From Betaproteobacteria bacterium (GTDB lineage: Bacteria > Pseudomonadota > Gammaproteobacteria > Burkholderiales > Burkholderiaceae_C): 42,900 nucleotides of DNA. Made by a program: the position numbers and the translations under genes. The notes under the pieces are model-generated. The model made no database searches. It worked only from the letters and a program-made list of their open reading frames with translations, and was not told where the DNA came from. The stretch covers positions 1 to 42,900 of the forward strand of contig RFQA01000005.1 of the NCBI GenBank assembly GCA_009925925.1, read 5' to 3'. Positions 1 through 9,658 of this stretch are shown here, one piece after another; the stretch's first letter is position 1, and each line of letters opens with the position of its first letter.

Positions 1-981
1 GCCCAAGCGGCTGGCAATGTCCTCCACGCTGTCGCTGGTGTGCTGCAAGAGCCAGAGCGTGCGGCTTTGTTGGTGGGCGTCCAGCAACTGCTGGAACGAG
101 GTGCCCTCCTGGGCGAGGCGCCGCATCAGGGTGCGCTCGGACACTTCGCATTGGGCCGCAATATCCGGCAGGCGGGGGTAGCTGCCTTCCGGGGTGTGGC
201 CCAGCAAGCTGGCTACGCGCTGCGCCATGCTGCTTTGCACCAGCTCAGCCAAGGCGGCATCGCATTCATGGCAGGCAGCGGCGTGCGCTCGGGCATCCGC
301 GCCCAGCAGCGGCAGGCGCAAGGCGGCGGCCGGCACATGCAAGGCCAACGTGGGCTGCCCGAACTGCAGGGGCAAGGGCAGGGCGCGCTCGTAGTGCGCC
401 ACCCATGCAGGGCGGGGCAGGGGCACATCCAGCCGCAGGCCTGCAGGCAGAGAGCCCACTGCGGCATGCAACACCCGCACCAGGGCCGCGGCCATGGTGT
501 CCAGCACAAAGCTGCGCGCACTGCCCCAGTCCAGCCGGTCAATTACTTGCAGGGTGCCGCCTTCGGGGCGCATCTGGAAGGACCAGCTGAAGCTGTCTTC
601 CCGCACCGGGCCGTAGCGCCCCAACACCATCAGGCAATGTTGCAGGTCCGGCGCAGTGACGGCGGCATAGCCCAGCGGGCCGTGGGCTGACACCGGCGCC
701 TGATCGCCCAGCTCCAGGCCTAGCCAGGGCTTGCCGGTGGCCTGCATGGCGGCTTGCACCAGCCGGATCACCGTATCGCGCGGCAAGCGCTGCTCGGTGG
801 TGAGCAGCTGGTTCCAGTCGAGCGCAGCGGCGGCCAGCACCCGGTCGCTGTCTATCGCGGCTTGCTGCAGCAGCATGCGCAGCAGGCGCGCGTAAATCGG
901 GTGCACCAATGCCTCGGCACCGGCCGCGGGGCGGGCCTGCGGGGCTGGGTGTTTTCCCTTGGTGGCGGGCAAATGGGGCAT
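1..981 (-). CDS. AraC-family transcriptional regulator with arabinose-binding-type N domain (3' end outside window)
   Basis: I read this frame by hand on the minus strand. It runs open from an ATG at 981-979 to the window edge, so the C-terminus is missing. The N-terminal ~200 residues look like the Arabinose_bd sensor domain of AraC regulators (segments LLQQAAIDSDRVLAAAALDW and GPLGYAAVTAPDLQHCLMVL). The C-terminal part has the AraC helix-turn-helix start, with LPDIAAQCEVSERTLMRRLA followed by FQQLLDAHQQSRTLWLL and the second helix pair beginning DSVEDIASRLG. The gene is divergent from the alkane monooxygenase gene with 74 bp between the start codons, so it is probably its activator; this is inference from position. 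GC content and codon use match the neighbours. The plus-strand open frames over it are antisense shadows. Confidence 0.88.
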   Translation of the reverse strand, partial: MPHLPATKGKHPAPQARPAAGAEALVHPIYARLLRMLLQQAAIDSDRVLAAAALDWNQLLTTEQRLPRDTVIRLVQAAMQATGKPWLGLELGDQAPVSAHGPLGYAAVTAPDLQHCLMVLGRYGPVREDSFSWSFQMRPEGGTLQVIDRLDWGSARSFVLDTMAAALVRVLHAAVGSLPAGLRLDVPLPRPAWVAHYERALPLPLQFGQPTLALHVPAAALRLPLLGADARAHAAACHECDAALAELVQSSMAQRVASLLGHTPEGSYPRLPDIAAQCEVSERTLMRRLAQEGTSFQQLLDAHQQSRTLWLLQHTSDSVEDIASRLG

Positions 982-982
982 G

Positions 983-1011
983 TTTGGCAGTTTAAGACGA
1001 CCCTTTGGCGG
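983..1011. promoter_or_regulatory. Candidate AraC-type direct-repeat operator between regulator and alkB
   Basis: Two direct copies of TTTGGC(A/G)G lie at 983-990 and 1004-1011. They are 21 bp apart start to start, about two helical turns, which is the usual geometry for AraC-family half sites. A weaker CTTGGC occurs at 1033-1038. The site lies in the 74-bp divergent intergenic region. Assignment to the adjacent regulator is inference. Confidence 0.35.
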
Positions 1012-1055
1012 CGCTATCGGTGGTAACCCATGCTTGGCGCTTTGACAGTGCAGCC

Positions 1056-2243
1056 ATGACTACTGCCAAGCTCCCCATCCCCCGGTCATCCCCCGCACCC
1101 GTGCAGCCTTATGTGGACCGCAAGCGATTTGCCTGGGTGTTGTCTTTGCTGGTGCCCTTATCGATCGCGACGGGCCCTTTGCTGTGGTTCTGGTACCCGC
1201 ACACGCTCATGCTGTGGCTGCCGGTGTTCTTTTTGTATGGCGTGGCGCCCGCACTCGATTGGATGCTGGGCACCGACATCAGCAACCCGCCGGAATCGGC
1301 AGTGCCCGGGCTGGAGGCGGACCCTTACTACCGCCGCGTGACCTTTGCGCTGGTGCCTTTGCTGTGGGCGGCCTTCATTGGTGCGGCCTGGTTCAGCCAG
1401 GTGGCCGGCATTACCTGGGTGGGGCTGTTGGGGCTCATTATTTCTACCGGCGGTGTGGGCGGCTTTTGCATCAACCTGGGCCATGAAATCGGCCACAAGC
1501 GCGCGCCGCTGGAGCGCTGGCTGGCCAAGCTGATTTTGGCGCCCACGTTTTACGGCCACTTCACCATCGAGCACAACCGCGGCCACCACCGCGATGTGGC
1601 CACCCCGCAAGACCCGGCCTCTTCGCGCATGGGCGAATCGATCTGGCGTTTTGTATGGCGCGAAATGCCCGGTGCCTGGCGCCGCGCATGGGCACTGGAG
1701 CGCGAGCGCACCCGCTTGGACGGACAGGCCTTCTGGTCATGGCACAACGAGATATTGCAACCAGCAGCCATCACCGTCGCACTGTGGTCGGCGCTGTGCG
1801 TGTGGATGGGGCCGCAGGTGCTGGGCTTTTTGGTGCTGGCGTCGCTGTGGTCGAACTTCCAGCTTACATCGGCCAACTACATCGAGCACTATGGGCTGCT
1901 TCGCCAGCAAGATGCCAATGGCCGGTTTGAAACATGTAAGCCGCAGCATTCCTGGAACAGCAACCACGTGTTCTCCAACTGGGCGACCTTCCACTTGCAG
2001 CGCCACTCGGACCACCACGCCCACCCGCTGCGGCGCTACCAGTCGCTGCGGCACTTTGACGAAGCACCGCAACTGCCCAGTGGCTACTTCGGTATGTTCC
2101 CCATCGCCTATGTGCCGCCCTTGTGGTTTGCGGTGATGGACAAGCGCCTGCTTGCGGCGGTGGGGCGTGACCCGGCCCGCATCAACTTTGCACCGGGGCA
2201 ACGGGAGCGATTGGTGGCGAAGTACGGCTTGGTGGAACGGTAA
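1056..2243 (+). CDS. alkB: Alkane 1-monooxygenase (AlkB family, membrane di-iron hydroxylase)
   Basis: The predicted product is a 395-aa integral membrane di-iron enzyme that hydroxylates the terminal carbon of n-alkanes using rubredoxin-delivered electrons in the inner membrane. All three histidine clusters of the AlkB family are present: HEIGHK near residue 143, HNRGHH near 172 and QRHSDHH near 315, plus the NYIEHYGL segment that precedes the last cluster. About six hydrophobic segments fit the usual topology. I chose the ATG at 1056 because the protein then has a normal short cytoplasmic N-terminus; an in-frame ATG at 1005 would add 17 residues unlike the family. No rubredoxin gene is seen nearby, so electron partners must be encoded elsewhere. 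The divergent AraC-type gene is the probable regulator. Substrate chain length cannot be told from sequence. Confidence 0.93.
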   Translation: MTTAKLPIPRSSPAPVQPYVDRKRFAWVLSLLVPLSIATGPLLWFWYPHTLMLWLPVFFLYGVAPALDWMLGTDISNPPESAVPGLEADPYYRRVTFALVPLLWAAFIGAAWFSQVAGITWVGLLGLIISTGGVGGFCINLGHEIGHKRAPLERWLAKLILAPTFYGHFTIEHNRGHHRDVATPQDPASSRMGESIWRFVWREMPGAWRRAWALERERTRLDGQAFWSWHNEILQPAAITVALWSALCVWMGPQVLGFLVLASLWSNFQLTSANYIEHYGLLRQQDANGRFETCKPQHSWNSNHVFSNWATFHLQRHSDHHAHPLRRYQSLRHFDEAPQLPSGYFGMFPIAYVPPLWFAVMDKRLLAAVGRDPARINFAPGQRERLVAKYGLVER

Positions 2244-2251
2244 GCGGTGCC

Positions 2252-2581
2252 TTAGCCACGGGGCAGAAACGGCAAGACCTTGCGTTCAAGCAACTGCACC
2301 AATGCCGGGTCCATGAACTTGTAGTTGTCGGGAATACCGAGGCAGATCACTCGCTTGCCTTTTAGGTGGGGCTTGAACTCCGCCGAGAGCTTGGCTTTGT
2401 GGCTGCGCTCCATGACAAAAATGAGTTCAGCCCAATCGACCAACTCAGACGTCAGCGGGTTTTCAGCCCCACGATTCAAGCCTGCGGATGTGCACTCGAT
2501 GCCCGGATGTTCGGAAAAAACCTGCTCTGCAGTAGGGCTGCGCCAGCGGTTCATGCTGCAGATGAAGAGGACTTTTTGCAA
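2252..2581 (-). CDS. Small predicted protein tyrosine phosphatase (COG4551-like)
   Basis: This 109-aa cytoplasmic protein begins with a phosphatase loop: VLFICSMNRWRSPTAE, where Cys8 and Arg14 form the CX5R signature, followed by SPT as in low-molecular-weight tyrosine phosphatases. It is shorter than classical LMW-PTPs (about 150 aa) and fits the compact COG4551 family. The general-acid Asp of the classical DP motif may be in FMDPALVQ near the C-terminus. The gene is convergent with alkB, with 8 bp between the stop codons. No operon partner is evident, since the next minus-strand gene upstream is a small membrane protein 97 bp away. The function is assigned by family only; the substrate is unknown. 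Confidence 0.8.
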   Translation of the reverse strand: MQKVLFICSMNRWRSPTAEQVFSEHPGIECTSAGLNRGAENPLTSELVDWAELIFVMERSHKAKLSAEFKPHLKGKRVICLGIPDNYKFMDPALVQLLERKVLPFLPRG

Positions 2582-2678
2582 TCGAAATGTGGGGTATTTT
2601 GGCTGGTGGGTCAGCTGGGAGGCAAATACGGCTTTAGGCTGGAAGCGGACTCCTATCGCGCGCCAAAACTGACACTAA

Positions 2679-2957
2679 TCAAACGTCAGAAGCAAGACTT
2701 TCTCGATACTGTTTTGCCCATAAAGAAAACATCATCCACAGAGACGCCGGAACAGTCACAAACGATAGCAATGGGCACAGAAAGAGTCCAATTTCGACCA
2801 TCCCGGTTATATCGATTTCACTTAGAGAACATGAATGCAGCGACTTCATATTCCCTTTGCAATGCAAGTATGGGTAGGCCCATAGGGTGACCTGCCATGC
2901 GGCTAGGGTGAGCGTTCCCGGAAGTGCACTGAGTAAATAGCGAATGGTCAGAGTCAT
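2679..2957 (-). CDS. Small hypothetical membrane protein
   Basis: This open frame gives a 92-aa product from the ATG at 2957. It has two likely transmembrane segments, LLSALPGTLTLAAWQVTLWA (about residues 7-26) and a second around IGLFLCPLLSFVTVPASLWM (about 55-75), with a Cys-containing loop between. A longer frame starts at 3086, but its extra N-terminal 43 residues overlap the vapC remnant and look non-coding, so I prefer the inner start. Codon use is more AT-rich than neighbouring genes, which may mean acquired DNA. I do not recognise a family and cannot exclude that it is not expressed. Confidence 0.4.
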   Translation of the reverse strand: MTLTIRYLLSALPGTLTLAAWQVTLWAYPYLHCKGNMKSLHSCSLSEIDITGMVEIGLFLCPLLSFVTVPASLWMMFSLWAKQYRESLASDV

Positions 2958-3042
2958 GTTGAAGAAATTAATATGAACGGGGAAAACTGGATCGAGCAAA
3001 AATGCCCGCTTTCGCTGCATTACGTACGTCGAGCTTACCCTG

Positions 3043-3266
3043 TCACCCCACCCAGTTCTCCAACCTGAGCCCCTGCACCCGCTCAAACTCCCCGACGTTG
3101 TTGCTCACCAGCGTGCAATCGTCTGCCAGCGCGTGGCAGGTGATCCACAGGGCGTTGGAGCCTACAGGGGTGCCTGCGGCGCGCAGTCGGGTGAACTGCA
3201 TGGCGTAGTGTTAGCACAAGCTGGCGCTGGTGCCGTAGCACACGGGGATGGAGCGGGTGAGGTCTG
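3043..3266 (-). pseudogene. vapC (PIN-domain toxin) remnant
   Basis: Reading the minus strand to the stop at 3043-3045 gives the C-terminal part of a PIN-domain ribonuclease toxin. It contains AAGTPVGSNALWITCHALAD, then DCTLVSNNVGEFERVQGLRL and ENWVG, which correspond to the VapC pattern AGTPIG-ND-LIAAHALA..TLVTNN..EF.RV.GL.VENW. An in-frame TAA lies directly before HYAMQFTRL, and the N-terminal half with the first catalytic Asp is missing. The fragment SIPVCYGTSASLC before the stop still resembles the family. I infer a dead toxin gene left after decay or deletion. Confidence 0.6.
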
Positions 3267-3482
3267 TCAGTCGCTTGAGCACTTCGGGTTTGCGGGTGCT
3301 GCTCCCTGCAATGGCAAGGTGGCTTTCTGGTCAGCCACCAGCAGATCGGCAAAGTCGTCGTCAAACGCTTCCAGCGCTTGCATGAGTGCCGCGCCCCGGT
3401 CTGCCGGAATCGGCTGTTGGATTGACTCGCCATCGGTGTTACTACCCATCTCCATGGGGTTCATGGCTGCATTCATCGGCAT
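3267..3482 (-). pseudogene. Probable vapB-type antitoxin remnant
   Basis: A 71-aa open frame precedes the vapC remnant on the same strand. Its middle part, ADRGAALMQALEAFDDDFAD, followed by LLVADQKATLPLQ, resembles the toxin-binding C-terminal tail of VapB antitoxins. The N-terminal AbrB/SpoVT-like DNA-binding strand region that such proteins need is absent, and the last residues run out of frame into toxin-like sequence. The position upstream of vapC in the same direction supports the call. It could still be a short expressed peptide, but more likely it is a truncated relic. The identification rests on a short similarity. Confidence 0.4.
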
Positions 3483-3491
3483 CTCCGAGTA

Positions 3492-3511
3492 AACTGTGTT
3501 TTTATACAGTT
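3492..3511. promoter_or_regulatory. LexA (SOS) box at the dnaE2 start
   Basis: The sequence CTG-TGTTTTTATA-CAG occupies 3494-3509 and exactly matches the LexA pattern CTG-N10-CAG, with an AT-rich centre. It ends five bases before the dnaE2 ATG at 3515. A possible -10 element (TATACA, 3503-3508) lies inside the box, so LexA would block the polymerase directly. SOS control of dnaE2 is established for the family. Confidence 0.85.
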
Positions 3512-3514
3512 TAA

Positions 3515-6500
3515 ATGCACTCTCCCAAGCCCATCAAGCCCCAGCAGCCAGTAGCCACCCCGGCGCCTGCCTATGCCGAGCTGCATTGCCTCTCCAACTT
3601 CAGCTTCCAGCGCGGTGCCTCGCAGCCGGAGGAGCTGGTGGAGCGGGCGCACCGGCTCGGGTATGCGGCGCTGGCCATTACCGACGAATGTTCGGTGGCC
3701 GGGGTGGTGCGCGCGCATGGCGAGGCGCAGCGCTTGGGGCTGCAGCTGCTGCCGGGGGCGGAGTTTGCTGTGCCTTACCCGGCTGCGCAGGGTAGTGTGG
3801 CGTCGGGGGCCAGCTTCACCGTGGTGGTGTTGCCGCACAACCTGCAGGGCTGGGGTAACCTGTGCGAGTTCATCACCCGCGCGCGCATGGCGGCGCCCAA
3901 GGGCGACTACCGGGTTGCCTGGCTGGGGCAGTCGGACGCTTCCCCCTGGCACACGCTGCGGCATTGCGAGGTGCTGCTGCACCTGCCCCTTGCTATCAAA
4001 AAAGAAGCTGCTTGCGCAATAGCGATGAGCGCTAGAGGCCAATTTGGCACTCATTGCTGGCTGGCAGTCACTGCGGGGTTGGGCGGCATGCAGGCGCTGG
4101 AGCGGGCGCACTGGCAGCAGATTGCGGCGGTGAGCGGGCTGGCCCTTATTGCCACCGGGGAGGTGCGCATGCACACCCGCTCGCGCAAGCCGCTGCACGA
4201 TGTGCTGACCGCTGTGCGCTGCGGCCTGCCGGTGGCGCAGTGCGGCTTTGCGCTGCAGGCCAATGCCGAGCACCACCTGCGCAGCCGCGCTCGGCTCGCG
4301 GCCCTATTCACGCCCGACGAGTTGGCCCACACGCTGGTGGTAGCGGGGCGCTGCAGCTTCACGCTGGATGCGCTGCGCTACCAGTACCCCATGGAGGCCG
4401 TGCTGCCCGGCCACACCCCGGCGCAGACTTTGCGGCAATACACCGAAGCGGGCGCGCTGGAGCGTTACCCGGCGGGTATGCCGCCGAACGTGCGTACGCA
4501 GGTAGAGCATGAGCTGGCCCTGATTGCCGACATGAAGTACGAGATGTATTTCCTCACCGTGCACGACCTGGTGCGATTTGCGCGAGGGCGCGGCATCTTG
4601 TGCCAGGGACGGGGCTCGGCGGCGAACTCGGCGGTCTGCTACTGCCTGGGCGTGACCGAGGTGGACCCCAGCCGCATGAACGTGCTGTTTGAGCGCTTCA
4701 TCTCCAAGGAGCGCGACGAGCCGCCTGATATTGATGTGGACTTTGAACACCAGCGGCGCGAAGAGGTTATCCAGTACATCTACGCCAAATACGGCCGCGA
4801 GCGCGCCGCCATTACCGCTGTGGTGGCTAGCTACCGGCCGCGCAGCGCGCTGCGGGATGTGGGGCGGGCGCTGGAGATTCCTGAGGTGTTGATCACCGCC
4901 ATGGCCAAGGAGCACCCCGGTATGTACAGCCGTGCGGTGTTGGTGGAGCGGCTGCAGGCTGCTATCGAAAAAGTAGCTGGTTGCGCAGATTCTGCGGGCG
5001 CTGGGGGTGGTTTTGATGTTCAATCTCCGGCGGGCAGTGTGGGGGCCGGGAGCCAGAGCGGCAGGGCGCCCAGCTCCGTGTCCCCCGCCCGCGTTGCGGG
5101 CTCCTCCTTGACCTACGCTGAACGCCCTGCCGCTCTGGCTCCCTCGGGGGGCGTTGTTGAGCGCGGTGGTTCTTTGGGGGCTGGCTCACCAGCGTCGGCT
5201 GCTTGCGACCTGTTGGTGGACGGTTCGCCCTTGCCGCCTTTGCGCCGCCTCCAGCTCTGGTTGGACCTCGCCACTCAGCTACAAAGCTTCCCCCGCCACC
5301 TCAGCCAACACGTGGGCGGCTTTGTGCTCACGCAAGGCCCGCTGACCCGGCTGGTGCCAGTGGAAAACGCGTCTATGCCCGAACGCTCGGTCATCCAGTG
5401 GGACAAGGACGACCTGGACGCGGTGGGCCTCTTGAAGGTGGATGTGCTGGCCCTGGGCATGCTCAGTGCCATACGACGTTGCCTGCACCTCATCGGCCAG
5501 TGGCGCGGTGCGCCTATGCGCATGCAAGACGTGCCTGCCGAAGACCCTGCCACCTACGCCATGATCTGCCAAGCCGATACGGTGGGCGTTTTCCAGATTG
5601 AGAGCCGCGCGCAAATGAGCATGCTGCCGCGCCTGAAACCGCAGTGTTTTTACGACCTGGTGGTCGAGGTGGCCATCGTGCGACCGGGGCCGATTCAGGG
5701 CGGCATGGTCCACCCCTACCTCAAGGCGCGCGCCAACCCGCAAGCGGTGACCTACGCGTCTCCTGCCCTGAAAGAAGCCTTGAAGCGCACACTGGGTGTG
5801 CCGATTTTTCAGGAGCAGGTGATGCAGATCGCCATGGCGGCTGCCGACTTCACCGCGGGCGAGGCGGACCAGTTGCGCCGCTCCATGGCCGCCTGGAAGC
5901 GCAAGGGCGGTGTGGGCAAGTTTTATGAGCGGCTGGTGGGCGGCATGCTCAAGAACGGCTACACGCAGGAGTTTGCCGACACGCTGTTCAAGCAGATTGA
6001 GGGCTTTGGCGAATACGGCTTTCCCGAGAGCCATGCAGCCAGCTTTGCGCTGCTGGTGTACGTGAGCTGCTGGCTCAAAAGGCATGAGCCGGCTTGCTTT
6101 CTGGCGGCCATGCTCAACAGCCAGCCGCTGGGCTTTTACGGCCCGGCACAGCTCGTGCAAGACGCCCGCCGCCATGGGGTGGAGGTGCGTGCGGTCGATG
6201 TACTGCACAGCGCATGGGACTGCACGCTAGAGCAGCCGCAAGAGCAACACCCTGCCGTAAATGGATGGGCACTGCAAACCCAACCTGCCATCCGATTGGG
6301 GCTGCGCATGGTGAGTGGCTTGCAGAAAGAAGTGGCCGAGCGCATCTGCGCTGCGCGTGAAAAAGGCCCGTTCACCAGCACCCAAGACCTGGCCCTGCGC
6401 TGCCAGTTAGACGCCGGCGACCTCAAAGCTCTGGCCAGCGCCGATGCCCTCATCAGCCTCAGCGGCCACCGCCGCCAGCAGGTGTGGGACGCCTCCGCGC

Positions 6501-7000
6501 TGCGCCCCGCGCCCGCACTGTTGCGCGGGGTGCCGATTGAGGAAGATGTGTTGGAGCTGCCCCCGGCCGAAGAGGGTGAGGAAGTGACCTTTGACTACGC
6601 GGCCACCGGCCTCACTTTGCGCTCCCACCCCCTGCAGCTATTGCGCTCTCAGCTATCAAAACAGAAGCTACTCACCGCAGCGCAGATGCGCGATTACCCC
6701 AGCGGCCGCCTGGTGCGCGCCTGCGGCATCGTCACCGCGCGCCAGCAACCGGGCACCGCCAAAGGCGTGGTGTTTGTCACGCTGGAGGACGAGACCGGCA
6801 GCGTGAACATCATCGTCTGGAAGGCGGTGAAAGAGCAGTTCCGAGATGCGGTCTACCGCGCCCGGCTGATGGCAGTCTACGGCGTATGGCAGCGTGACGA
6901 GGCCACCGGCGGCCAAGTCCGCCATGTGATTGCCAAGCGGGTGGTGGACATGACGCACCTGCTGGGTGAGTTGGCAACGTCCAGCCGGGACTTTCATTGA
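3515..7000 (+). CDS. dnaE2: Error-prone DNA polymerase DnaE2 (ImuC) with repeat-derived insertions
   Basis: The 1161-aa product is a second C-family DNA polymerase alpha subunit that performs mutagenic translesion synthesis with ImuA and ImuB in the SOS response. An N-terminal PHP domain begins at YAELHCLSNFSF. The palm has the catalytic PDIDVDFEH near residues 404-412. The family hallmark FPRHLSQHVGGF is near 592, and a C-terminal OB fold (KGVVFVTLEDETGSVNIIVW) is near 1090. The protein is longer than the usual ~1030-1080 aa. The excess comes mainly from two in-frame insertions made of interspersed repeat DNA, at about residues 159-178 and 483-565. Both lie in variable surface regions and spare the motifs. 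The ATG at 3515 is the only in-frame start before the conserved region; it has no Shine-Dalgarno sequence and lies next to the LexA box. No imuA or imuB is adjacent; the upstream DNA is a decayed toxin-antitoxin locus. Whether the enlarged protein is active is unknown. Confidence 0.95.
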   Translation: MHSPKPIKPQQPVATPAPAYAELHCLSNFSFQRGASQPEELVERAHRLGYAALAITDECSVAGVVRAHGEAQRLGLQLLPGAEFAVPYPAAQGSVASGASFTVVVLPHNLQGWGNLCEFITRARMAAPKGDYRVAWLGQSDASPWHTLRHCEVLLHLPLAIKKEAACAIAMSARGQFGTHCWLAVTAGLGGMQALERAHWQQIAAVSGLALIATGEVRMHTRSRKPLHDVLTAVRCGLPVAQCGFALQANAEHHLRSRARLAALFTPDELAHTLVVAGRCSFTLDALRYQYPMEAVLPGHTPAQTLRQYTEAGALERYPAGMPPNVRTQVEHELALIADMKYEMYFLTVHDLVRFARGRGILCQGRGSAANSAVCYCLGVTEVDPSRMNVLFERFISKERDEPPDIDVDFEHQRREEVIQYIYAKYGRERAAITAVVASYRPRSALRDVGRALEIPEVLITAMAKEHPGMYSRAVLVERLQAAIEKVAGCADSAGAGGGFDVQSPAGSVGAGSQSGRAPSSVSPARVAGSSLTYAERPAALAPSGGVVERGGSLGAGSPASAACDLLVDGSPLPPLRRLQLWLDLATQLQSFPRHLSQHVGGFVLTQGPLTRLVPVENASMPERSVIQWDKDDLDAVGLLKVDVLALGMLSAIRRCLHLIGQWRGAPMRMQDVPAEDPATYAMICQADTVGVFQIESRAQMSMLPRLKPQCFYDLVVEVAIVRPGPIQGGMVHPYLKARANPQAVTYASPALKEALKRTLGVPIFQEQVMQIAMAAADFTAGEADQLRRSMAAWKRKGGVGKFYERLVGGMLKNGYTQEFADTLFKQIEGFGEYGFPESHAASFALLVYVSCWLKRHEPACFLAAMLNSQPLGFYGPAQLVQDARRHGVEVRAVDVLHSAWDCTLEQPQEQHPAVNGWALQTQPAIRLGLRMVSGLQKEVAERICAAREKGPFTSTQDLALRCQLDAGDLKALASADALISLSGHRRQQVWDASALRPAPALLRGVPIEEDVLELPPAEEGEEVTFDYAATGLTLRSHPLQLLRSQLSKQKLLTAAQMRDYPSGRLVRACGIVTARQQPGTAKGVVFVTLEDETGSVNIIVWKAVKEQFRDAVYRARLMAVYGVWQRDEATGGQVRHVIAKRVVDMTHLLGELATSSRDFH
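3989..4046 (+). repeat. Interspersed repeat copy A, inside dnaE2
   Basis: The copy starts TTGCTATCAAAAAAGAAGCT, then GCTTGCGCAATAGC and GAGCGCTAGAGGCCAATTTG. It is translated in frame as LAIKKEAACAIAMSARGQF within the PHP-domain part of DnaE2, where other DnaE2 proteins have no matching segment (from memory of the family). It is the same element as the copies at 4961, 23601 (reverse), 28438, 33213, 33981 and 41477. Confidence 0.75.
4961..5022 (+). repeat. Interspersed repeat copy B, inside dnaE2
   Basis: This copy starts GCTATCGAAAAAGTAGCTGG, then TTGCGCAGATTCTGCGGGCG and CTGGGGGTGGTTTTGATG. It is read in frame as AIEKVAGCADSAGAGGGFDV and lies immediately before the hairpin element at 5048-5143. 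Together they form an insertion in DnaE2 between AIEKV and the conserved FPRHLSQHVGGF region. Confidence 0.75.
5048..5143. repeat. Hairpin element with 21-bp perfect arms, inside dnaE2
   Basis: The arms at 5048-5068 and 5123-5143 are perfect inverted complements of 21 bp; the left arm begins GGGAGCCAGAGCGG. The 54-bp loop holds a second small hairpin, GCCCGC-GTT-GCGGGC at 5087-5101. The DNA is translated in frame as low-complexity Ser/Ala/Gly-rich sequence. I infer a small mobile or REP-like intergenic element that entered a coding sequence. Confidence 0.75.
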
Positions 7001-7162
7001 TTGAGCCCCGGCCACATTCAGTTCATTGCGTGGTTTAGTCATTCGGATGCAATGTGCCAAAGCGCACAGAGCCCGAGTCAGGCGACTTTTAACCTGCGTT
7101 CGGGTCATGTACGAATTGCCTTGTGCGTGGCCCTATCAGGTTCATCCACTCAAGGAGTTTTT

Positions 7163-7840
7163 ATGATTTTGAATATCAAACGAAGCGCAATCGCTCTTTC
7201 CCTATTAGGCGCATTCGGGATAGCTCAAGCCACCGCATTGGTAGCTAATTCACCTACTGCAAATGTGGATTACTCAGCTACATTCTTCGGCGGTACTCTG
7301 GTCGCTTCTGCGGTCACGGCGGTCAGCAATGCCGCTTACAACGGATTCGCACGCACAGCTGTATACGACACAGGCACAGGCCTGGATTTTTACTATCAGT
7401 TCAGTAACAGCATTACTTCCAAAAATGGAATTGAGCGATTCACCGGTTATGACTTCAGCAGCTTGGGCACCGCCGCCGTCAACGTGTATCAAACCGACGC
7501 GACATTCGGAATTTTTACCTCTGGCACTGAGCGCTCAGACTATGCAGATCGGACCAATTTAGGCGTGATGGCCTTTAGTTTTGTGCCTAACGGAAACTCG
7601 AAGATTAATCCTGGCACGACCAGTTTGACCCAGATTATCCGTACCTACGCCCGCTCATTCAAAGCAGGAAACTTCGGTCTCCTGGACGGTATCGGTGACA
7701 ACGCACAAGGCTACGCTCCCGCCGCAGCTGTGCCTGAACCGGAAACCTACGCCATGTTGTTGGCTGGTTTAGGTCTGATGGGCGCGATTGCACGCCGCCG
7801 TAACAAGGGTCAGAAGGGTAGCGAAACCGCGACGTCCTGA
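7163..7840 (+). CDS. PEP-CTERM sorting-domain secreted protein
   Basis: This 225-aa exported protein has an N-terminal signal peptide (ALSLLGAFGIAQATA, cleavage probably near residue 22) and a C-terminal PEP-CTERM signal. The latter is VPEPETYAMLLAGLGLMG followed by the basic tail ARRRNKG, the substrate pattern of exosortase EpsH. The central ~160 residues are of mixed polarity, rich in Thr/Ser/Asn, and have no recognised domain. The ATG at 7163 is chosen because AAGGAG lies 6 bp upstream and the signal peptide starts there; an upstream in-frame ATG at 7001 would put 54 unrelated residues before it. No exosortase or exopolysaccharide genes are in the window. A role in biofilm or cell surface is inferred from the sorting class only. 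Confidence 0.85.
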   Translation: MILNIKRSAIALSLLGAFGIAQATALVANSPTANVDYSATFFGGTLVASAVTAVSNAAYNGFARTAVYDTGTGLDFYYQFSNSITSKNGIERFTGYDFSSLGTAAVNVYQTDATFGIFTSGTERSDYADRTNLGVMAFSFVPNGNSKINPGTTSLTQIIRTYARSFKAGNFGLLDGIGDNAQGYAPAAAVPEPETYAMLLAGLGLMGAIARRRNKGQKGSETATS

Positions 7841-7904
7841 GCTTTTGATGCACTTCGGGTCGGTTGCTTCTCCACGAGGCTGCCGATCTGATTTGCATAA
7901 GGCC

Positions 7905-8489
7905 CTAGAACTTGCGCCTGAAGCCGAAGCTCAAGAAATCCTCACCATTGGCGCCATAGTTGTTCAACAGGTCGTATATGGCGCAGCGATGGTGCAAGCG
8001 CACAAAGAACTCACTGTCTTTGGATTGAGGGCGCGAAAACGCGGCTTCTACAAATAAGTAGTTCAACGTACGGCTCCCTCTTCCATCCGGCCCGGCTTCC
8101 ATGGGGCCGACTTGACTGGTGTGCGAGAGTCCCAAGGGCGCAAGACGGATGTCCGTACGTAGCGTATCGCGCCATGGAAGGCCGCTCCAACGCAGGGCGG
8201 GTGCCACTGCAATTTCAGTCAGGGTGGCCATGCCGGCTTGCTGCCCCAGCATGCCGTCAAGTTCAATGGCAATCGGCCACTCGCTATGTCTCCACAGCGT
8301 TTTGCTACTCGTCACAGCCAGCATGTAGTGCTCCGCATAGTTCGCACGACCTGCCAGCGCACCGGCGGGCTCCGCATCGTGATATTTGCCCGCATAGACG
8401 CCAATGCTCCAGTCTGATTCATCGGCTTGCACAGCCAATGGCATGAGCACCGCTGAGGCAGCGATGGCGATGGCAAGTAGCGGCTTCAT
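7905..8489 (-). CDS. Outer-membrane beta-barrel protein, PagL/acyloxyacyl hydrolase-like
   Basis: This 194-aa protein has a signal peptide (LLAIAIAASAVLMPLAVQA, cut before DESDWSIG), alternating hydrophobic beta-strand patterns and a C-terminal Phe (FGFRRKF), typical of an outer-membrane barrel. Near the C-terminus FFVRLHHRCAIYDLL and NGEDFLSFGF resemble the active-site strand of lipid A 3-O-deacylase PagL. There the catalytic motif is H-x-S followed by a Glu about 12 residues later; here it reads H-R-C with Glu 14 residues on, so Ser is replaced by Cys. It could be an inactive or Cys-dependent relative, or an unrelated small barrel. The ATG at 8489 is preferred over 8513 because the signal peptide begins MKPLL. 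It is convergent with the PEP-CTERM gene, and I see no clear terminator between them. Confidence 0.5.
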   Translation of the reverse strand: MKPLLAIAIAASAVLMPLAVQADESDWSIGVYAGKYHDAEPAGALAGRANYAEHYMLAVTSSKTLWRHSEWPIAIELDGMLGQQAGMATLTEIAVAPALRWSGLPWRDTLRTDIRLAPLGLSHTSQVGPMEAGPDGRGSRTLNYLFVEAAFSRPQSKDSEFFVRLHHRCAIYDLLNNYGANGEDFLSFGFRRKF

Positions 8490-8698
8490 GGGCGACACAT
8501 TAGGTAAGGGCATGGCGCTAAATGGGGTGAGCTGAAAGATGGGCGAATGCTAGTGAGATCGCGCCATTTGAGGCAATGTCCATCGGCAAAGTCCCCATGT
8601 GTGCCAAGGCGACAAACCGTTTTTCTTTCGTGTCCGTCTGAACGTTGCCGGTGTAGGATGCCCACAGGGAGTCCTACCCATTCTGCGAGGTCTGTGCG

Positions 8699-9658
8699 AT
8701 GACTGATACCACCCACCTGGAAGCCAAGGTGTTGCTGCTGGAGCACGATGCCCAGCAGTGCAAAGTGCTTACCGATTTTTGCGATTCTGTGGGCCTGATG
8801 CCCTTGTTGCGCACCTCGCACGATGCGCTTACATGCCTAGAGCAGCACAAGGATCTGGCAGGTGTACTGTTGGCCGAAGACCTTCCTTGCGGTAACCGTG
8901 ACGCGCTGCACTTGGCCGAATCCATTCACCGCTTGCGGCCTGAGCTGCCCATCTTTCTCCGTCGTACTGCCAGCGGAGACCTGGATGCGCTGTACCGTGA
9001 ATTTATCCGCTACCCATGGAGCACCGGCGACGTCGAGCAACTGCGCGCCGGCGTGGAGCGGTCGATATTCAGCCTGCGCTACCCCACTGCTCTGGTGGAA
9101 GGTATCGTGGATTTGACGCTGACTTCCATGCGCTCCATGTTCCCGAACGCCAACGTGACGGCCGAGCCACCTTATGTGGTGCACGACCGCATCATCCATG
9201 GCGAAGTGTCCACCATCATTCCGATCGAAAGCACCTGGTGCCGCGGCTACATGATGTTGCAAACCGAAGAAAGTGCACTGCGCCAGGGCATGCTCAAGGG
9301 CTTCAGCTACGAGGGGGTGGGTGGTGAGCTCAACTTTCGCGACCTCAACAACATGCTGGGCGAAACCACCAACCTGATCTGGGGTGCTTTCAAAAACCGC
9401 TACATTGCCCCTGTAGGTACTGCCACGCAGCTGGCCCAGGTGCCGATCGTGATCAACCATGCGCACAAATACATCTCTTTCGGGTCGCCCGATCCGCAGT
9501 TGTGTATCCGCTATTCGCTGTCGGAATCCGGTCGGCGCGGTGGCCAGCCGCTGGTGATCGTGCAGCGGTTTATATTCAACCTCCATTGGTCACCCGAGCA
9601 ATTCGCAGAATATGCAGCGTCAAGCTCCAGCGATGCCGGTGAACTGGATCTGTTTTAA
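8699..9658 (+). CDS. Degenerate receiver domain fused to CheX-like domain
   Basis: This is a 319-aa cytoplasmic protein. Residues ~9-125 have a response-regulator receiver layout, but the key positions are changed. The acidic pair reads LLLEHD, the phosphoacceptor Asp position reads LLAEDLP (Glu), and the conserved Lys region reads IRYPW. Residues ~135-300 resemble CheX/CheC-type phosphatase domains: RDLNNMLGE near 213-221 fits the family pattern ExxN with Asp in place of Glu. The next gene (46 bp on) is a canonical CheY, so this protein may bind or dephosphorylate that regulator. A Ser/Asp-rich tail (ASSSSDAGELDLF) ends the protein. The receiver probably cannot be phosphorylated and may mimic the activated state; this is inference. 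No chemoreceptor or kinase is nearby. Confidence 0.65.
   Translation: MTDTTHLEAKVLLLEHDAQQCKVLTDFCDSVGLMPLLRTSHDALTCLEQHKDLAGVLLAEDLPCGNRDALHLAESIHRLRPELPIFLRRTASGDLDALYREFIRYPWSTGDVEQLRAGVERSIFSLRYPTALVEGIVDLTLTSMRSMFPNANVTAEPPYVVHDRIIHGEVSTIIPIESTWCRGYMMLQTEESALRQGMLKGFSYEGVGGELNFRDLNNMLGETTNLIWGAFKNRYIAPVGTATQLAQVPIVINHAHKYISFGSPDPQLCIRYSLSESGRRGGQPLVIVQRFIFNLHWSPEQFAEYAASSSSDAGELDLF

Follow-up and report, generated by a model that had tools for sequence, protein, structure and literature searches.

Organization of the dnaE2 Locus and Its Hairpin Element

The window analyzed here, a 42.9-kb contig of an assembly comprising 3.86 Mb in 465 contigs, carries on its plus strand a dnaE2 gene (3515–7000), which encodes an error-prone DNA polymerase III alpha-type protein of 1161 residues and is named on the basis of its Pfam DNA_pol3_alpha, finger, PHP, and OB domains and of its relatives. 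Consistent with the initial annotation of this DNA, the reading frame is open throughout, including across two stretches of dispersed-repeat DNA (copies A and B of "repeat A") and a hairpin, and the named polymerase motifs are intact despite the repeat-derived linker. Of the other ORFs near dnaE2 (window 1–9658), six were scanned, and none had an ImuA/ImuB-like Pfam match.

The hairpin, here termed H, is a 96-nt unstranded palindromic insertion (5048–5143) in the same frame as the polymerase, encoding residues about 512–543. Its left arm (5048–5074, plus strand; perfect over the first 21 nt and at 93% over 27 nt) pairs with a right arm (5117–5143, minus strand), and the perfect 21-bp inverted arms reported earlier at 5048–5068 and 5123–5143 are real. 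The arms enclose a 42-nt asymmetric spacer (5075–5116, minus strand), which is found in either orientation among orthologs. The spacer contains a conserved core, AAGGAGGAG-stem-GGGGGACA (5079–5109, minus strand), and within it an inner hairpin (5087–5101, minus strand) with a 6-bp stem, formed by 5087–5092 with 5096–5101, and a 3-nt loop. The minus strand of H has a calculated folding energy of −81.1 kcal/mol versus a shuffled mean of −61.8 kcal/mol (z −4.7, with 0 of 200 shuffles as low), whereas the plus strand stands out less from its shuffles (z −2.3, 3 of 200).

Analysis of the equivalent linker at 64 dnaE2 loci, 59 of which were readable (four of the 59 being near-certain duplicate genomes), supports the proposal that the hairpin is an in-frame insertion: H is present in 27 linkers (26 by pattern, and L331 by eye) and absent from the other 32. 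The window linker has 134 residues, versus 54–62 in 31 of the 32 H-less linkers and 75 in the remaining one. The gain is therefore ~72–80 residues, rather than the approximately 100 originally suggested; H itself supplies 32 codons of it, and the rest is further linker beyond H. The longest perfect palindrome arm is 6–9 bp in the 32 H-less linkers versus 7–24 bp in the 26 with H, and since none of the former exceeds 9 bp, insertion of the core into a ready-made dnaE2 palindrome is unsupported. A 12-bp inverted repeat does occur at the dnaE2 linker position of L073, a fragment outside the set of 32. In L331, H is partly deleted with the frame kept.

In an AlphaFold2 model of the window DnaE2 (30 sequences, mean pLDDT 77.8), residues 492–565, a long stretch around the insert, are predicted with very low confidence (ten-residue block means 23–48), and the insert sits in a low-confidence linker between conserved motifs. 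The segment corresponding to the first repeat-A copy (residues about 157–181) is, by contrast with that stretch, modeled as a confident helix and strand.

Repeat A Replaces Coding Sequence without Adding Length

Repeat A is a dispersed repeat of about 60 nt. Copy 1 (copy A; 3985–4055, plus strand) scores 68 bits against a repeat-A profile whose seeds included it, and 62 bits against a profile built without it; copy 2 (copy B; 4957–5023, plus strand) scores 37 bits. Both were assigned from the profile and from comparison with relatives, and copy 1 also from the structure model. The earlier proposal that both copies are insertions holds insofar as they match a dispersed repeat, but neither adds measurable length. 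At copy A, dispersed-repeat DNA lies over a native segment of the same length, and DnaE2 segments with and without repeat-A DNA are equal in length there. Copy B begins in native codons, its start encoding the conserved RLQ(A/S)AIEKV, and four H-less relatives in which repeat A scores 15–25 bits at this site (L310, L327, L349, and L353) retain linkers of 54–62 residues. A third repeat-A remnant seen by eye at about 6651 was not recovered by the profile.

The same length-neutral replacement of coding sequence by repeat-A DNA is apparent at window 3985–4055, at dnaE2 site 1 of relatives (L301–L330), and in putA (L375–L380), where the copies have the same length as the A-less putA of G053. Repeat A comes and goes among relatives, L306 lacking it within an A-bearing clade. 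Ectopic gene conversion may be one way in which such replacement arises.

These observations bear on the idea, put forward in the initial annotation, that several intergenic repeats were inserted together and produced a polymerase with changed properties. Repeat-A DNA does adjoin H in dnaE2, and repeat A lies within 70 bp of 12 of 102 tabulated H rows, versus 273 of 4550 random positions in the same loci. However, copies A and B add no measurable length, and the insert lies in the low-confidence linker between conserved motifs; we regard this idea as improbable. At six loci (L002, L018, L216, L240, L252, and L267) H abuts partial-profile repeat-A copies, as if H had entered repeat A.

H Is a Dispersed Element of One Bacterial Family

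The H core occurs 31 times in the window's own genome, bearing out the expectation that the hairpin would recur elsewhere in its host, and among 72 genomes of the genus it is present in 56, with up to 80 copies per genome. A sample of the family, whose named relatives belong to the Burkholderiales (Rhodoferax, for example), showed H in 146 of 399 genomes and in 72 of 141 genera, in some as a single match. No core was found in 48 genomes of other families of the same order, and outside the family but within the class, one of 271 genomes (G529) has H, in the form of four H-like cores that make up two inverted pairs and have long inner stems. The core pattern read backward gave no match in the genus/order or family samples and one match in each of two out-of-family genomes. 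An outer stem forms on folding in eight of nine H copies taken from other genera, the copy in L368 being the exception. The stems vary between copies, and the unpaired motifs hardly vary.

The window's assembly is fragmented, as an assembly artifact might require, but the same element is present in many independent genomes, including single-contig assemblies, G007 among them. This already refutes an origin of H as an artifact or chance palindrome, to which we assign a negligible probability.

Pattern searches of viral contigs gave 38 H matches, yet 36 of these have an inner stem of 0–1 bp and the matches are therefore probably due to chance. A search of plasmids with one H copy as query gave no match. 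Rfam contains no family reaching its gathering score in window 3900–5300 or at five further loci, the sub-threshold matches being mostly to microRNA hairpin families. H is not named in the titles and abstract openings of the matches listed from the open-licence literature, and the names Burkholderia, Rhodoferax, and Polaromonas were not found by text search of PMC3733652, PMC12306157, and PMC2817692.

The gene settings of H were assigned with a home-made gene finder in four genomes, giving 102 rows that represent 101 distinct copies (a copy at a locus end appears in two rows, and a few copies with an identical counterpart in another genome were treated as one). Among the 102 rows, 22 lie within genes, 2 at gene edges, and 45 in codirectional, 15 in convergent, and 7 in divergent gaps, with 11 undecided, the doubled row among them. 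Thus 22 of the 101 distinct copies are genic, mutual orthologs included, and H is mainly extragenic; 10 distinct copies at locus ends are undecided, some of which (L011 and L269, for example) lie in mpl by alignment. The genic sites include those in dnaE2, mutL, hrpA (twice), putA, mpl, a histidine kinase gene, and an araC-type gene, and at these H is in frame and the gene open. Pfam matches at H-bearing genes are to MutL, aldehyde dehydrogenase (PutA), Mur ligase (Mpl), HrpA, HisKA kinase, AraC-type, and periplasmic binding proteins. When HrpA is aligned with its solved E. coli counterpart, the two H copies correspond to two alignment gaps (query 321–376 and 819–900). The PutA copy falls in a gap (301–338) relative to a solved homolog, and that of Mpl in a loop which is also long in a solved homolog. 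The predominance of intergenic copies, the dispersal of H in the host genome, and its position in a very-low-confidence stretch of DnaE2 support the earlier view of an intergenic-type repeat turned protein linker.

In hrpA (L248, L252) the two in-frame copies are about 1.5 kb apart. At L015, L233, and L259, a possible start codon, ATGATGTT, follows closely on the end of H, and the purine stretch separating the two resembles a ribosome site (by eye).

The Arms Covary at and between Sites

Although the arm sequences of H vary among sites, the two arms of a copy remain complementary. Among 21 distinct dnaE2 orthologs, oriented by the core, 98.0% of arm cells are paired, versus 89.5% when partners are shuffled, and there are 55 double-change cells versus 15.4 shuffled. 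The corresponding values for 21 copies from the window's own genome (21 of its 25 copies with a 31-nt core, the four with another arm offset being left out) are 97.6% versus 74.5%, and 132 double changes versus 34.6. In both sets 0 of 500 shuffles reach the observed number of double changes, although relatedness can inflate a covariation excess measured by shuffling. Slid-partner controls gave only 31–44% pairing. At the standard offset, and with G-U counted as a pair, 16 or more of the 22 arm positions are paired in 88 of 92 distinct copies with a 31-nt core.

Across 27 pairs of genic copies, mean divergence is 0.185 in the arms, 0.024 in the core, and 0.116 in the flanks; intergenic averages were left out of this comparison as they include mispaired partners of inverted pairs. 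For the eight genic sites in the four genomes, the arms change faster than the flanks at five; at mutL the two rates are approximately equal, and at putA and dnaE2 the arms are the slower. The conservation of the cores relative to the flanks (2.4% versus 11.6% divergence in genic pairs) implies that something may recognize them. Within the window's clade (eight genomes), the arms and middle of H differ by 2–4%, versus 8–10% for the polymerase and 20–31% for the neighboring linker, which is more constraint than a neutral insert predicts.

Covariation of this kind would also fit a structured RNA, and H might be a terminator, small RNA, or mRNA-stability hairpin whose arms covary through selection on the RNA fold. 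In addition to the strength of the covariation, the better preservation of the core than of its flanks and of the dnaE2 copy than of the polymerase in the window's clade would fit such a role. However, orthologous sites carry the spacer in both orientations, so that their transcripts would have opposite loop sequences. Moreover, copies occur within coding genes and in gaps of all three kinds (convergent, codirectional, and divergent), and no Rfam family reaches threshold in the regions searched. A structured RNA is accordingly an alternative that we consider rather unlikely.

Spacer Inversion Is Possibly Filtered by the Reading Frame

Over 54 dnaE2 rows, the 42-nt middle is in the plus orientation in 13 and in the minus orientation in 12, and 29 are without H. 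On the dnaE2 tree, orientation requires at least 7 changes, presence/absence at least 14, and all three states together at least 17, counts that do not separate gains from losses. One relative (G066) has arms nearly those of the window (9% different) with the opposite middle. According to the initial annotation, an insertion would be refuted if related proteins had the same segments with conserved amino acids. Relatives do have the hairpin segment (27 of the 59 readable linkers), but its arms covary and its middles are flipped, and its amino acids are not conserved.

For a wider view, 172 copies with enough flank were considered, of which 98 lacking a second core within 460 bp fell into 19 single-copy orthologous groups. 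Spacer orientation is mixed in six of the 19. The histidine kinase site is unmixed with its two members, but mixed in a wider set (three versus four genomes). The cleanest flips, with similar arms, are those in dnaE2, in the kinase, between L003 and both L225 and L253, and between L018 and L267. At the other flipped sites the arms differ too, strongly so at several intergenic ones, where re-insertion may therefore have occurred.

The spacer length, 42 nt, is divisible by three, and phase is therefore kept when the spacer flips. In dnaE2 the flip exchanges the peptide AGQGGARxAGGGHG for SVSPARxAGSSLT, while copies in phase 1 read QVKEEPAxRAGDTE. Flipped in silico, all 11 phase-1 rows tested (mutL, both hrpA sites, putA, mpl, and the araC-type gene) meet a TGA, whereas the phase-0 copies (dnaE2 and kinase, four rows) are open in both orientations. 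Exceptions exist: the phase-1 gene-edge copy L020 is open when flipped, as are 8 of 75 copies in phase 1. Mixed groups number 0 of 6 in phase 1, 2 of 2 in phase 0, and 5 of 11 in intergenic DNA, such that, within genes, mixed orientation was seen exclusively at sites that stay free of stops when flipped. The difference (0 of 6 versus 7 of 13) has a hypergeometric probability of about 0.03, calculated by hand on a small sample. The pattern fits a blind flip at the DNA level that is filtered by the reading frame, within the limits of that sample.

Relationship to REP Elements and RAYT Transposases

In REP, BIME, and REPIN elements a GGAG tag stands beside a short hairpin, and RAYT genes are flanked by their own REPs. 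H resembles these elements in its many short palindromic copies and in their frequent arrangement as inverted pairs, about 110–200 bp apart; in sequence, a GGAG adjoins its inner hairpin. It differs from REP-type elements with a RAYT in its long outer arms of private sequence, in the absence of H at the Y1_Tnp loci fetched, and in that about one fifth of its copies are genic in the four genomes examined.

Were a RAYT (Y1 transposase) responsible for moving H, the copies in dnaE2 could be repeated, independent hot-spot insertions, which would explain both orientations. The inverted pairs, the GGAG, the at least 14 presence/absence changes on the dnaE2 tree, and the recurrence of similar arms at a few sites other than dnaE2 are compatible with this. 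Against it, an H-like core with an inner stem of at least 4 bp was found at 0 of 31 Y1_Tnp loci fetched from a larger list (control, 0 of 68 loci); looser matching with no stem required gave 11 of 31 and 45 of 68 for the longer control loci, and is uninformative. The number of H copies per genome shows no significant correlation with the number of Y1_Tnp matches (Spearman 0.20, p 0.09), and 4 of 32 genomes with at least 10 H copies have no Y1_Tnp match, while 14 of 16 H-less genomes have one (several of these assemblies being incomplete). The dnaE2 arms are mutually closer (0.25) than those of own-genome copies (0.53), and the near-window arms of G066 enclose an opposite middle, both of which speak against repeated insertion. 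RAYT mobilization is thus unsupported by locus proximity and by copy-number correlation, and we consider it unlikely, if somewhat less so than a structured RNA.

A Y1_Tnp match occurs in 68 of 75 genomes of the genus, mostly as a single frame of about 240 residues, as if domesticated (C7, L062 in the window's own genome). MITEs have terminal inverted repeats in common with an autonomous transposon and produce a target-site duplication. The arms of H differ between copies, its insertion ends are too diverged for a duplication to be read, and the search for an autonomous relative covered Y1_Tnp, with the outcome given above.

A Probable Homogenized, Inverting Palindrome

We favor, as the probable explanation, a palindrome of one bacterial family, similar to REPs and to Rickettsia palindromic elements (RPEs), in which template switching homogenizes the arms and inverts the spacer. 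H would have been mobile and probably entered the dnaE2 linker in an ancestor of several lineages of the genus. A single old insertion is suggested by the arms of the dnaE2 copies, which resemble one another about twice as closely as those of own-genome copies do. The tolerance of H in dnaE2 would follow from the disorder of the linker and from a reading phase in which neither orientation of the spacer contains a stop. Following insertion, replication-linked template switching between the arms may act on H: switching within the arms would copy one arm onto the other, such that arms differ by site and species but stay complementary, and switching across the spacer would invert the 42-nt middle.

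In yeast genes, template switching at inverted repeats is described as homogenizing the arms and inverting the spacer (PMC8604942), and template switching has been proposed to create and maintain RNA hairpins (PMC8794818). H displays both features, with concerted arms and with inverted spacers at orthologous sites, and like the yeast repeats it does so also in coding DNA and with reversals. The yeast sites, as described in PMC8604942, are scattered repeats with short spacers and inversions amounting to 2–5 bp substitutions, whereas H is a dispersed bacterial element with a 42-nt spacer in which several sites have changed in parallel.

A more active variant would be a mobile palindrome recognized by its shape, with an inversion activity of its own: a protein or the replication machinery would recognize the conserved unpaired motifs, rewrite the arms, and flip the spacer frequently enough for DnaE2 and a sensor kinase to be switched reversibly between two linker peptides. 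We regard this as a distinctly speculative proposal with little likelihood of being correct.

The homogenized palindrome that we favor appears, by analogy, to work like an RPE and looks like a REP array, although the link to a RAYT is not borne out. RPEs, as described in PMC10969869, are protein-coding palindromes of ~150 bp, inserted in frame in unrelated genes. H is likewise a short dispersed palindrome that is in frame in unrelated genes with their domains kept, but it belongs to another host family, and the likeness drawn here is one of description. H has site-private covarying arms and two spacer orientations giving two peptides. Mitochondrial protein genes of Nematomorpha also contain long inverted repeats (PMC6649704); there the arms encode conserved protein, whereas H is an added linker in dnaE2 and, in hrpA and putA, contributes residues where the alignments have gaps.

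H offers a natural, repeated record of arm homogenization and spacer inversion in bacteria, with dozens of sites in some genomes and in many species, and at its coding sites the reading frame tells which flips are allowed. The combination of many sites with this constraint makes the origin of covariation without RNA selection testable. It is also a warning that covariation alone can mislead searches for structured RNAs. With regard to proteins, H is a repeat that supplies extra residues to those of replication, repair, and RNA unwinding (DnaE2, MutL, and the RNA helicase HrpA).

Slippage between short direct repeats may remove the element. L323 (G039), which is without H, is the supported sister of the H-bearing L320 (G070) and is nested among H carriers. 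The two differ by 84 nt, in frame, and the L323 junction fits, by eye, a deletion between CTGCCG repeats such as those in the relative L347. In the putA of G034 (L374), most of the H core is gone and arm sequence is left.
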